IMG/VR virus record: IMGVR_UViG_3300031841_001771
Span: 1-25,226 of that record
Strand: one strand, 5' to 3'
DNA: 25,226 bases
Origin: a virus
Below the pieces are notes generated by a model. It saw only the letters and a program-made list of their open reading frames with translations. It made no database searches and was not told the DNA's origin. Numbering within the stretch: the first letter of the stretch is position 1; each line of letters opens with the position of its first letter. Below, in pieces: positions 14,055 to 17,897 of the stretch. A program made the position numbers and the translations under genes.

Positions 14055-15776
14055 ATGAATATCAATTCTTTGTTACCTCATGATGCAAATGTTAACCAAA
14101 ACAATGTTGCGATCGCTTTGGAAAATAAGTGGACGAAAACTGGTCTTTTGGAAGGCATTGATAATGAGATTGAAAGACGAGGTATGGCAGTTCTTCTTGA
14201 GAACCAAGCTAAACAACTCGTAACGGAAGCAAACTCTACAGGTACTGATGCTAACGCTGAAGAATGGGCTGGAGTTGCTCTTCCATTGGTACGAAGAATC
14301 TTCGCTGAAATTGCAGCAAAAGATTTCGTATCTGTACAACCTATGAACTTACCATCTGGTCTAGTATTTTACTTAGACTTCAAATATGGTACTGCTCAAG
14401 GTACTAACGGAACCGCTGGTGGTAATGACTTCTTGACTGGTCAAGGACGTAAATCACAAGGTGATTCTGTATTTGGTATTACTGATGCTGGTGGTCTTGG
14501 AACCGAGGCTGTAGGTGGAAATGCTCCATCTGAAGGTCTTTATGGTGCTGGACGATTTGGTTATACTATCAATGACGTTACTTCATCTACATTGACTTTA
14601 GCTAATGATGTAGCATCTGCAAGAACAGGTTCTGTTGCTGTAGGTACTGGAGTATTCTCGAACGGTGGAAATTTATCTGCTGCTCAATTTGATTGGTATA
14701 CTAACTTTAATGCTGAATTATCTGCATCTGTTGTTTCTAACGCATACGGACCATTCACTGTATTATCAATACCAACTTCATCATTGTCTAACCCAGATCT
14801 TCGTGGTGTGAGAGCATTCAACGTAACTGGTACTAACATTGATGGTGTTTATCCTGAATTTACAAGAATTTCTCAAGACAAGGGTCATGTTGAATTCTTA
14901 ATCGATGCAGATTCTGATTTTAATGGTGCAATCGTTACTTATCACAAACAACCTACTGATATTACTAGAGGTGATTTCGAAGATCCTTCTGCTATTGGAA
15001 ACAATACCGGAACTACTTTGGATATTCCAGAAATCAATCTTGAAATGAGATCAGAGGCTATCGTAGCTAAGACTCGTAAGTTGAAAGCAATCTGGTCTCC
15101 AGAATTTGCTCAAGACTTGAACGCATACCATTCAATTGATGCTGAAGCAGAGTTGACTTCTATGTTATCTGAGTATATTTCGCAAGAGATCGACTTAGAG
15201 ATCCTAGATATGTTGATTCAGAATGCTCAAACAACTGAGCGTTGGTCAGCTAAGATTGGATTTGAGTATGATGCAGCGTCTAACGCATTCGTTCAGTCAA
15301 ATGCAACTGCTCAAGCATACAACCAAGGAACTTGGTTCCAGACTCTTGGAACTAAAATCCAAAAGGTATCAAACAAAATTCATCAGTTAACACTTCGTGG
15401 TGGTGCAAACTTCTTAGTATGTTCTCCAACTGTTGCAACTATCCTAGAATCTATTCCTGGATATGCTGCTGATACAGATGGTGATAAAATGCAGTTTGCA
15501 ATGGGTGTTCAAAAAGTTGGTGCTATTAACAATAGATTCCAAGTTTATAAAAACCCATACATGACTGAGAATACTATATTAATGGGATATAGAGGATCTC
15601 AATTCCTTGAAACTGGTGCGGTATATGCTCCATATGTTCCATTAATTATGACACCTCTAGTGTATGACCCAGACAACTTCACTCCAAGAAAAGGTGTGAT
15701 GACTCGTTACGCGAAGAAAATGGTTCGTCCAGAATTCTACGGTAAGGTTCATGTTGCTGGTTTGGATACTATTTAA
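14055..15776 (+). CDS. 23: Major capsid protein (gp23-like)
   Basis: 573 aa shell subunit of the HK97 fold. Family landmarks: EEWAGVALPLVRRIFAEIAAKDFVSVQPMNLPSGLVFYLDFKYG (about 69-112), EINLEMRSEAIVAKTRKLKAIWSPEFAQDLNAYHSIDAEAELT (about 325-367), EISQEIDLEIL-type segment, and the C-terminal LVYDPDNFTPRKGVMTRYAKKMVRPEFYGKV. The N-terminal 58 residues should be the propeptide removed by gp21: VTE58|A59 and LLE33|G34 are the candidate sites, the former close to the T4 position (E65). The gene follows gp22 with a TAGGGGATAT binding site and is closed by a strong terminator, consistent with very high expression. No gp24-like vertex protein follows here. Confidence 0.97.
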   Translation: MNINSLLPHDANVNQNNVAIALENKWTKTGLLEGIDNEIERRGMAVLLENQAKQLVTEANSTGTDANAEEWAGVALPLVRRIFAEIAAKDFVSVQPMNLPSGLVFYLDFKYGTAQGTNGTAGGNDFLTGQGRKSQGDSVFGITDAGGLGTEAVGGNAPSEGLYGAGRFGYTINDVTSSTLTLANDVASARTGSVAVGTGVFSNGGNLSAAQFDWYTNFNAELSASVVSNAYGPFTVLSIPTSSLSNPDLRGVRAFNVTGTNIDGVYPEFTRISQDKGHVEFLIDADSDFNGAIVTYHKQPTDITRGDFEDPSAIGNNTGTTLDIPEINLEMRSEAIVAKTRKLKAIWSPEFAQDLNAYHSIDAEAELTSMLSEYISQEIDLEILDMLIQNAQTTERWSAKIGFEYDAASNAFVQSNATAQAYNQGTWFQTLGTKIQKVSNKIHQLTLRGGANFLVCSPTVATILESIPGYAADTDGDKMQFAMGVQKVGAINNRFQVYKNPYMTENTILMGYRGSQFLETGAVYAPYVPLIMTPLVYDPDNFTPRKGVMTRYAKKMVRPEFYGKVHVAGLDTI

Positions 15777-15831
15777 TAGTTAACAATTGATTGATTTGTT
15801 AATTAACAATTAGCAATTATTAAATGACTTT

Positions 15832-15858
15832 AAAGGGTGGCTTCGGTCACCCTTTTTT
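15832..15858 (+). terminator. Rho-independent terminator after capsid gene
   Basis: AAAGGGTGGC-TTCG-GTCACCCTTT followed by a T-run. The stem has a C-UUCG-G tetraloop and one G-U pair, a very stable hairpin. It lies 56 bases after the gp23 stop and separates the head genes from the accessory cassette. The bases before it contain two TTAACAATT copies with no evident role. Confidence 0.93.
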
Positions 15859-15881
15859 ACTGGCAAAAAGCTTCAAAAAAA

Positions 15882-15913
15882 TTTGGTACTTTGAAATATT
15901 CTTCTTATATTTA
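15882..15913 (+). promoter_or_regulatory. Bacteroidetes-type promoter of accessory cassette
   Basis: TTTG (15882-15885), 20 bases including TTTGAAATATT, TATATTTA (15906-15913). The upstream AAAAAGCTTCAAAAAAATT is nearly repeated at the promoter at 16621. It lies immediately after the gp23 terminator, so the next genes can be expressed independently of late head genes. Confidence 0.62.
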
Positions 15914-15935
15914 AGTATAATAATTAATAGAAGAT

Positions 15936-16124
15936 ATGAACCACCACGAAGAATTAGGAAATCAACATAGAAAATTGCTTAAGCAATTAGAGTTAGCTAA
16001 GCAGTTTATGGAAAAGAAAAGAAAACATTGGAAAGCTAATACAACCAGCGATAACGCTAGATTTGCCTTTCAAAATGCGATCGGATTAGTTAACCAATTA
16101 GAAAAAAAGTTATGGCAGTTTTAG
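15936..16124 (+). CDS. Small basic hypothetical protein
   Basis: 62 aa, no ribosome binding site (AGAAGATATG), first gene after the promoter at 15882. It is highly charged and probably all helix: a Leu/Lys/Gln-rich stretch (RKLLKQLELAKQFMEKKRKHW, about 12-32) then ARFAFQNAIGLVNQLEKKLWQF. Its end overlaps the HD hydrolase by 13 bases, so the two are likely coupled. A helical hairpin regulator or partner of the hydrolase would suit, but nothing in the sequence shows it. Confidence 0.7.
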   Translation: MNHHEELGNQHRKLLKQLELAKQFMEKKRKHWKANTTSDNARFAFQNAIGLVNQLEKKLWQF

Positions 16125-16603
16125 GATATGAAAAAGTAAAAAAATTTGCTACCGATGCACATCAAGGGCAAAAGAGAAAGTATACCGATGAGGATTATAT
16201 TACTCATCCAGTAGCAGTTGCGAATTTGGTACATGCAAGGTATGAAGATGATAATATGACTTGTGCTGCTTTATTGCATGATGTATTAGAAGATACGACG
16301 GTTACTCATTCTGAATTAAGAGCATTTTTACATAAAACATTTAGTGTTGAAAGTGCAGAAGATATTCTATCATTAGTTGTTGACTTGACCGATGTATATA
16401 CCAAAGAAGCTTTTCCTGATTATAATAGAAAGCAAAGAAAAACGTTTGAGGGTTTAAGATTGGCATATGCATCTAAAAGAGCTAAGCAGATCAAAAAAGC
16501 AGATATAGAACATAATTCAGAATCTATTTTAGAACACGATCCTAAATTTGCAAAAGTATTTTTAGCAGAAAAAGTTCAGTTAATGAGTTATATGTTTAAT
16601 TAA
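16112..16603 (+). CDS. HD-domain hydrolase of MESH1/SpoT type, putative alarmone hydrolase
   Basis: 163 aa, single domain with no synthetase, TGS or ACT part, so of small-alarmone-hydrolase size. Motifs in order: AHQGQKRKYTDEDYITHP (16-33, metal-ligand H32), AALLHDVLEDT (52-62, H56-D57 and E60-D61), DLTD (91-94), then KKADIEHN (128-135, D131 ligand and N135). This order matches the (p)ppGpp hydrolase domain of SpoT/Rel and animal MESH1, which remove pyrophosphate from the alarmone; MESH1 also acts on NADPH. In a phage it could quench the stringent response during infection. Other HD phosphohydrolases acting on nucleotides share parts of this pattern, so the substrate is inferred. It overlaps the preceding small gene by 13 bases and is followed by a separate promoter. 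Confidence 0.85.
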   Translation: MAVLGYEKVKKFATDAHQGQKRKYTDEDYITHPVAVANLVHARYEDDNMTCAALLHDVLEDTTVTHSELRAFLHKTFSVESAEDILSLVVDLTDVYTKEAFPDYNRKQRKTFEGLRLAYASKRAKQIKKADIEHNSESILEHDPKFAKVFLAEKVQLMSYMFN

Positions 16604-16620
16604 AAAAAGCTTGAAAAAAA

Positions 16621-16652
16621 TTAGGACTTACGAAATAAAGTTCTTATATTTA
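16621..16652 (+). promoter_or_regulatory. Second Bacteroidetes-type promoter in accessory cassette
   Basis: TTAG (16621-16624) in place of TTTG, 20 bases, then TATATTTA (16645-16652). Flanks repeat those of the 15882 promoter (AAAAAGCTTGAAAAAAATT). Probably drives the 170-aa gene and the structured RNA beyond it. Confidence 0.5.
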
Positions 16653-16675
16653 TATATAATTAAAAAATAAGAGAT

Positions 16676-17188
16676 ATGAGCCAATTCAAAATTCAAAACC
16701 AAGAAGATTTTAATGATTGTTTAATGTGGGTATCGGACCTATATAAAGACGTGTATGGATCGAGGCCTCGAGGGTATGATTTCCAGTCATGGTCATTTCA
16801 AGAGTTGCAAGACTTTGTTGATGATTTGATCGAAATGAATGATAACCAAATCGAAGCTGAAAAGGCTCATGAAGATCAATGCGTTGCGGAGTTCCGTAAA
16901 AAGTTTGAAGCTATTATGGAAGAGCAAGGCCAAGGTTACCATAAAGCTTTAGAATGGATGTTTGATGGTTTTATTGCCGAAGAGGGATTGGATTATTATT
17001 CAATTGAGATGTTTGAATATTATCATGGTATTAGTTATACAGAGTTAGGTCATAAAATTAAAAAAGATCTTGAAGATTTAGTCCAATCAAATAAGAAGTA
17101 TATTTATAATGAGCATATTGATATGGCTCCGGAAGTTGAAGATCAAGAAGAAATTTTGAATAAAGAGCATGATCCTTTATTTCAATAA
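16676..17188 (+). CDS. Acidic hypothetical protein
   Basis: 170 aa, start AAGAGATATG without ribosome binding site. Strongly acidic, aromatic-rich and probably helical. The N-terminal part contains DLYKDVYGSRPRGYDF (21-36), a phrase resembling (L)YKDVYGxRPR segments I have seen in unannotated phage and plasmid proteins, followed by WSFQELQDFVDDLIEMN. The second half has EWMFDGFIAEEGLDYYS and ends in a tail of acidic residues (MAPEVEDQEEILNKEHDP). No catalytic motif, membrane segment or signal is visible. It is the last protein gene of the accessory cassette and is followed nine bases later by the structured RNA. Function unknown. Confidence 0.8.
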   Translation: MSQFKIQNQEDFNDCLMWVSDLYKDVYGSRPRGYDFQSWSFQELQDFVDDLIEMNDNQIEAEKAHEDQCVAEFRKKFEAIMEEQGQGYHKALEWMFDGFIAEEGLDYYSIEMFEYYHGISYTELGHKIKKDLEDLVQSNKKYIYNEHIDMAPEVEDQEEILNKEHDPLFQ

Positions 17189-17196
17189 AAAGACCG

Positions 17197-17439
17197 ACCT
17201 ATCATTAGGGTGGCACCACGAATAGCCGTAGCTGGCACTAGTGTTAAGGTTTAGACCGCCATTGGGATAGATTCAGAAACCCAATGCTTAACACGAAGGT
17301 TTGATAGGTATGAGTAGATACAAGCGGGTGGGCAGGACAAGTATGTTCATGATATGTGAAACCGGCAGATCGATATGCCAGATTAGCAGAACGGAAAGTA
17401 AGTCGCGAGACGGGAGTCAAGAAATTGGCTCCTTTTTTT
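17197..17439 (+). ncRNA. Candidate structured RNA ending in an intrinsic terminator
   Basis: The 307 bases between the 170-aa gene and the next ATG contain no convincing ORF and are clearly richer in G and C than the surroundings. Nested perfect helices: ACCTATCA (17197-17204) with TGATAGGT (17302-17309), enclosing GTGTTAAG (17241-17248) with CTTAACAC (17287-17294), enclosing ATTGGG (17261-17266) with CCCAAT (17280-17285). GGTGG (17209-17213) can also pair with CCGCC (17256-17260), which would make a pseudoknot. A second domain has GGCA/TGCC (17364-17367 with 17376-17379) and GTC-GCGA-GAC (17402-17411, GNRA loop). The terminator at 17413 closes it. It fits no tRNA, tmRNA or RNase P pattern that I can recognise. 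The exact 5' end is unknown; it may be processed from the 16621 transcript. Confidence 0.65.
17413..17439 (+). terminator. Rho-independent terminator of structured RNA
   Basis: GGAGTCAA (17413-17420), GAAA loop, TTGGCTCC (17425-17432) with one G-U pair, then seven T. It closes the accessory cassette before the late-type motif at 17471. Confidence 0.9.
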
Positions 17440-17470
17440 GTGTCAAAAAGTATAAATGCTAATTTGTTAC

Positions 17471-17484
17471 ATATTTATATCAAA
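17471..17484 (+). promoter_or_regulatory. Late-promoter-like motif before first tail-fibre gene
   Basis: ATATTTATATCAAA, 11 bases before the ATG and overlapping the AAAAGGAT ribosome binding site region. It follows directly after the cassette terminator, where a new promoter is needed to transcribe the fibre genes. That makes this copy one of the better arguments for promoter function. Confidence 0.55.
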
Positions 17485-17495
17485 AGGATATAGAC

Positions 17496-17897
17496 ATGGC
17501 ATCCGGAAAATATTCATTCATAGTTGAGCAAGGAGCAACCACTGATTTTCAAATAGTGTATAAAGATTCAGACGGCGTGGCCGTTGACCTATCTGGTTAT
17601 ACAGCTGCAATGCAATTACGAGATTCAAAAGGTGGTTCAACATTATATACTACATTAACATCGAGTTTAGGCGATACATATACAAAAACCTCCGGTTCGG
17701 CATTTTTAAGTTTATCCGGAAGTAATTTAACAACTGATCAAGTTTCCGGAAGTATAGGTGTTTATATAGGTCATGGCGTAACTAATGATTTTTCATTTAA
17801 CGAAGCATATTACGATATTGAAATAACTAACGGGCAGATACGAACAAGATTACTAGAAGGAGCAATCAAACTTACTAAGCAAGTAACAACGGTATGA
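17496..17897 (+). CDS. Baseplate/tail-fibre-associated beta protein
   Basis: 133 aa. The N-terminal GKYSFIVEQGATTDFQIVYKDSDG, followed by VDLSGYTAAMQLRDSKGG, matches a pattern recurrent in phage baseplate (BppU-type) and fibre-attachment domains: EQGATxxxxxxxKD...DLxGYxAxMQxR. The rest alternates beta strands (GSAFLSLSGSNLTTDQVSGSIGVYIG, NEAYYDIEITNGQIRTRLLEG) and ends with LTKQVTTV. No signal or membrane segment. Its stop overlaps the next start by four bases (ATGA), so the collagen-bearing fibre is translated with it. A role as connector or N-terminal cap for the fibres is inferred from similarity and position. Confidence 0.8.
   Translation: MASGKYSFIVEQGATTDFQIVYKDSDGVAVDLSGYTAAMQLRDSKGGSTLYTTLTSSLGDTYTKTSGSAFLSLSGSNLTTDQVSGSIGVYIGHGVTNDFSFNEAYYDIEITNGQIRTRLLEGAIKLTKQVTTV

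Follow-up and report, generated by a model that had tools for sequence, protein, structure and literature searches.

What occupies the 300 bases that lack a protein gene in the capsid region of this phage, and what could this stretch do during infection? The window, by which we mean the whole stretch analysed (25,226 nucleotides, IMG/VR record IMGVR_UViG_3300031841_001771), belongs to a T4-like phage, within its structural region; the host is probably a Flavobacterium-type bacterium. The capsid protein of the phage shares 57–58% identity with the counterparts in Flavobacterium phage immuto and Microcystis phage Mel-JY01. The capsid gene ends at 15776 and the next late gene starts at 17496, with a 62-aa ORF, an HD-domain hydrolase gene, ORF170 and then the protein-free gap lying in this order between them. 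Inside the gap, segment 17197–17439 has a G+C content of 45.7%, compared with 31.0% upstream and 35.2% for the whole window. The initial annotation had described a G+C-rich island here and had placed its ends correctly. Elsewhere in the window, a gene for ribosomal protein bS21 (PF01165, 12590–12844) stands between the protease and capsid genes, and that of Mel-JY01 has the same neighbourhood.

The features of the interval are as follows, names in L denoting related viral sequences.

16112 to 16603: HD-domain hydrolase gene (HD_4, PF13328, metal-dependent phosphohydrolase).
16604 to 16675, plus strand: spacer with a repeated promoter-like module (..TTAGGACTTACGAAATAAAGTTCTTATATTTATATATAA..AAGAGATATG), common to the slot genes of the window, L140, L141 and L001; putative promoter.
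16676 to 17188, plus strand: ORF170, PHROG 21968, a family without assigned function; ends 8 bases before the RNA and also precedes it in L140 and L141.
17197 to 17439, plus strand: structured non-coding RNA of about 240 bases, from the first P1 base to the end of the terminator T run; kept in L140 and L141, with no Rfam match.
17446 to 17495, plus strand: leader of the late gene that starts at 17496 (TTACATATTTATAT..), where homology to L001 restarts and the inserted unit has its right-hand limit.

The HD_4 hydrolase possibly acts on a nucleotide signal at the time of infection. As for the segment behind ORF170, the comparisons below demonstrate the existence of an RNA, its conservation, its strand and the genomic unit that carries it. 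We are highly confident that this is a functional RNA of one of three kinds, namely one acting in trans, a cis-acting 3′ untranslated region, or the RNA part of a ribonucleoprotein with the ORF170 product. The RNA is composed of two domains and a terminator.

17197 to 17309, plus strand: 5′ domain, closed by P1 and holding P2, P3 and a small hairpin (17225–17227/17234–17236).
17197–17204 with 17302–17309, plus strand: P1, 8 bp, all Watson-Crick.
17241–17248 with 17287–17294, plus strand: P2, 8 bp, all Watson-Crick.
17260–17266 with 17280–17286, plus strand: P3, 7 bp, all Watson-Crick.
17209 to 17260, plus strand: possible pseudoknot of GGTGG (17209–17213) with CCGCC (17256–17260); base 17260 is also in P3.
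17310 to 17411, plus strand: 3′ domain, a hairpin (17335–17339/17344–17348) and a larger surrounding stem in the consensus fold of the window and L140.
17402 to 17411, plus strand: GNRA-type hairpin GTC-GCGA-GAC, part of the 3′ domain.
17413 to 17439, plus strand: intrinsic terminator, an 8-bp stem (17413–17432) capped by a GAAA loop, with 7 T behind it; L140 has the stem and loop unchanged.

This architecture bears out the GNRA-capped hairpin and the terminator of the initial annotation, together with the lengths it gave for the two outer of three nested perfect helices, while the innermost, P3, has 7 rather than 6 bp. The pseudoknot it proposed can pair, but at the cost of a base shared with P3, and its strands are invariant in all three copies, so that covariation neither supports nor refutes the pairing.

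Taken by itself, the window sequence is suggestive only and leaves the case for a structured RNA open. The fold energy of the RNA segment is weakly better than that of shuffled sequences (z −1.64, 11 of 200 shuffles), with z −1.6 for 17198–17309 and z −0.2 for 17198–17412. Three nested perfect helices with 23 bp in all were reached in 0 of 1000 dinucleotide shuffles when only Watson-Crick pairs were counted, but in 361 of 1000 once G-U pairs were allowed, and a different 222-nt stretch of the window attains 22 bp in the same count. The structured RNA is convincing because of its conservation in L140 and L141, not because of single-sequence energy or helices. The earlier argument that such order implies a functional RNA thus stands on the homologues and not on the single sequence.

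Both homologues were found by an IMG/VR search with ORF170 and its L014 relative. ORF170 is 72% identical to the window copy in L140 and 70% in L141, and the RNA stands directly behind it in both, complete in L140 and partial in L141. A search model derived from the window copy only scores 117 bits in L140 and 100 bits in L141. The RNA matches L140 at 209 of 229 bases (91.3%) and L141 at 97% over the first 92 bases. The L141 contig breaks off inside the RNA (L141:3596; contig end, position 5748); assemblies tend to end at sequence common to several strains or copies. Between the window and L140, neighbouring sequence is 72–90% identical (HD gene 87%, spacer before ORF170 90%) and third codon positions 57–79%, with 71–79% for those of ORF170 or the HD gene. 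Under drift at the rate of ORF170 or HD third positions or of whole ORF170, the RNA identity has a binomial p between 1e-13 and 7e-7, the third-position comparisons of ORF170 or the HD gene (71–79%) giving 3e-7 or lower. In the least favourable comparison, with the whole HD gene at 87%, the identity is marginally high (p 0.04); third codon positions are the more apt yardstick. Long invariant blocks cross helices, loops and joints and include the entire stretch from P2 through P3 and back as well as the terminator stem-loop, whereas the bases just before P1 vary between copies. The comparison rests on three copies from close relatives, one of them the truncated L141. Absence of conservation in homologous phages had been named as grounds for abandoning the RNA, and conservation is what L140 and L141 display.

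The substitutions respect the fold. Of the 24 between the window and L140, 5 fall in the 116 paired columns of the two-sequence consensus fold and 19 in the 124 others, and no pair is broken; random placement of the same substitutions kept every pair in 3 of 20000 trials, a lenient test, as both sequences went into deriving the consensus. Of the four pairs that changed, three are G-C/G-U exchanges. The sole double compensatory change, U-A to C-G, lies in P2, which also has one G-U change, and both changed paired columns of the 3′ domain are G-C/G-U exchanges. Gaps are confined to unpaired columns, the internal ones measuring 2, 1, 1 and 2 bases. When the structure is drawn from the window only, L140 no longer forms the outermost P1 pair; 99% of cells still pair, compared with 26–46% for slid controls. 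A pair-shuffle control with this structure gave 235 of 500 and is uninformative. Of the compensatory changes anticipated in the initial annotation, one double change is present, with the helices kept.

The G-U pairs are kept on the plus strand only and the terminator is on the same strand, which identifies the plus strand as that of the RNA. The same observations bear on the reading of the segment as a DNA element, that is, a site for recombination, packaging or integration that contains inverted repeats. Its location at the edge of an inserted unit would suit such a site, but the G-U exchanges form pairs only in single-stranded RNA of the plus strand and a transcription terminator closes the segment, making this reading extremely unlikely.

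Equally remote is the idea that the 3′ half codes for a small protein and not for an RNA. One plus-strand frame is open in both the window and L140, and three of the four substitutions that follow the indels look silent by eye. Against this, two plus frames look equally conserved, and the mechanical frames in the region (53 and 58 aa) have no conserved start, the plus-strand one reading through the terminator. From an ATG present in both, the window frame runs for 50 aa, but the one in L140 is short and soon stops. More generally, the plus frames extend into or beyond the terminator. No convincing Pfam, PHROG or phage match was found for any frame of the region. We rejected the small-protein reading on its non-conserved start, indels, terminator read-through and lack of family resemblance; the segment had been described as free of ORFs, and in substance it is, the 53- and 58-aa frames not being conserved as genes.

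Does the RNA belong to a recognised family? A scan of the window against Rfam 15 (4227 families), with family gathering cut-offs and with loose thresholds, gave no match; the best chance result for the RNA had E 7.2, and that for L140 was a minus-strand hit to an unrelated miRNA model (E 0.34). ARAGORN found no tRNA or tmRNA in the window. The initial annotation had likewise been unable to place the segment among tRNA, tmRNA, RNase P or self-splicing introns, and its proposed Rfam scan has now turned up nothing to alter that view.

Individual likenesses were followed up. The AGGGTGGCACCACG at 17207–17220 resembles AGGGUGGNACCGCG, the motif of T-box leader RNAs (RF00230), but here it sits at the 5′ end, with no specifier stem. 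The RF00230 covariance model had no match in the window at E ≤ 10, L141 has AAGG for AGGG, so that AGGGUGGNACC is not kept, and 45 viral stretches sharing that motif gave no R1 match; the lead was dropped. The strand order PK5′-P2-PK3′-P3 resembles the P3-P7-P8 pseudoknot topology of group I introns, from which it differs in that P3 runs straight into P2 on the 3′ side; the RF00028 model found no match, and this candidate was also rejected. A type III toxin-antitoxin RNA was discarded, as 17197–17439 contains no tandem repeat and the RNA lies behind its ORF, not ahead of it.

GOLLD and ROOL RNAs are likewise phage-encoded and structured with function unassigned (PMC12286853). Many GOLLD members exceed 800 nt, and both families often lie near tRNA islands, whereas the RNA here is shorter and the window has no tRNA. 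Both are in Rfam, from which that study drew its profiles (PMC12286853), and their models found no match here. Racr RNA anti-CRISPRs, which are small and phage-encoded, target a ribonucleoprotein of the host (PMC10651486), and the likeness extends as far as the mere possibility of such a target. Racrs mimic a CRISPR repeat (PMC10651486), while a BLAST comparison of our RNA with 296 Bacteroidota genomes, a set that may not include the actual host, revealed no shared repeat and chance-level matches only.

Searches for further members gave a consistent picture. A 5′-half model had no match in 24 related phage records or 395 Bacteroidota genomes, and a 3′-half model matched L140 only among 17 records, the complete genomes of Mel-JY01 and immuto included. 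When conserved stretches were used as exact patterns against viral contigs, the scans returned nothing, L140/L141 only, or L140 and nine places negative with the 3′-half model. A pattern scan of genomes hit four places, all unrelated, and distant BLAST against cultured phages and plasmids gave no convincing match. The family is either narrow or diverging too fast for these searches, whose models come from very few sequences. The suggestion that the RNA belongs to a translation takeover marked by bS21 is not supported as a specific link, because Mel-JY01 carries bS21 and its complete genome gave no 3′-half-model match.

The genomic context is more informative. In the slot between the capsid and late genes (15777–17495 in the window; also L001, L140 and L141), genes carry a near-identical promoter-like module of about 70 bases, ending in AATAAGAGATATG or similar. 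The contents vary between an HD hydrolase, ORF170 with the RNA, a probable DNA ligase, and nothing, as in L002–L005, where only a terminator and the late gene are present. L001, the phage with the most similar capsid C-terminus (98.7%), lacks the RNA unit and has the first two slot genes followed by a DNA ligase gene in place of ORF170 and the RNA; the ligase label reflects similarity to the L140 ORF and inspection by eye, not a family search. L140 has the ORF170–RNA unit with the ligase gene, under its own promoter module, behind it. In L141, the two genes ahead of ORF170 are missing, and ORF170 and the RNA are all that precedes the contig end. Because the unit recurs while its neighbours differ, promoter, ORF170, RNA and terminator appear to form one unit that moves within a slot of variable content separating capsid from tail genes. 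In the same interval, L074:6412–6754 and L076:6858–7358 hold 340–500 bases with no long plus-strand ORF (G+C 38–46%), where a minus-strand gene is possible and Rfam gave no match.

This arrangement raises three further explanations. The main rival to trans action, which we consider possible though somewhat unlikely, is that the RNA is a cis-acting 3′ untranslated region of ORF170, whose fold protects the mRNA, times its decay or sets its 3′ end, with no trans-acting RNA at all. In the window the RNA starts just past the stop codon of ORF170, and in L140 and L141 too it comes immediately after that gene; no sigma-70-like promoter was found directly before it, none is conserved there, and the bases ahead of P1 are not conserved. 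Two points weigh against it: protection of an mRNA would hardly seem to require loops and joints that stay invariant across 240 nt, and L014 encodes a distant ORF170 relative (48% over residues 1–95), in another gene context, with no RNA behind it.

The L014 gene also counts against a single ribonucleoprotein or two-part system formed by the ORF170 protein and the RNA, which would explain why the two are together in three of three copies while neighbouring genes change. The predicted fold of ORF170 is all-helical and has no convincing or informative PDB relative (best E 0.42), and we regard such a system as distinctly improbable. Less probable still is a cis attenuator or riboswitch controlling read-through into the downstream gene. 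A long structured region directly before a strong terminator is what one would look for, but what lies downstream is a late structural gene in the window and, in L140, a ligase gene under a separate promoter module, and no conserved helix was seen to compete with the terminator stem.

The best explanation, to which we give close to an even chance, is a trans-acting phage RNA recognised by its shape and produced from the ORF170 transcription unit. Transcription would start at the promoter module upstream of ORF170 and would end at the RNA's own terminator. Processing just behind the ORF170 stop codon would probably then release a stable RNA of about 240 nt that accumulates. Conjecturally, its three-dimensional shape may let it bind a protein or ribonucleoprotein of the host, which it would block or redirect; we favour this mode over antisense pairing because loops and joints vary no more than the helices do. 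A role as a decoy, also raised in the initial annotation, is a possibility for such an RNA.

More speculatively, and with correspondingly lower expectation, we suggest that this compact RNA represents a new family confined to a few Flavobacterium-type T4-like phages, where it would act in trans through its shape, inhibiting a host RNA-binding machine (the ribosome, RNA polymerase or a defence ribonucleoprotein) or serving as its adaptor, and be swapped in and out of the capsid–tail interval as a self-contained unit. We know of no isolate that carries it, although related phages, the immuto phages of Flavobacterium, are in culture. Few phage RNAs are known to have a conserved structure but no known function, and this one, being short, clear-ended and part of an exchangeable unit, is amenable to expression, deletion and pull-down. 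For the anti-CRISPR RNAs, finding the partners brought to light new phage strategies for blocking the defences of the host (PMC10651486).
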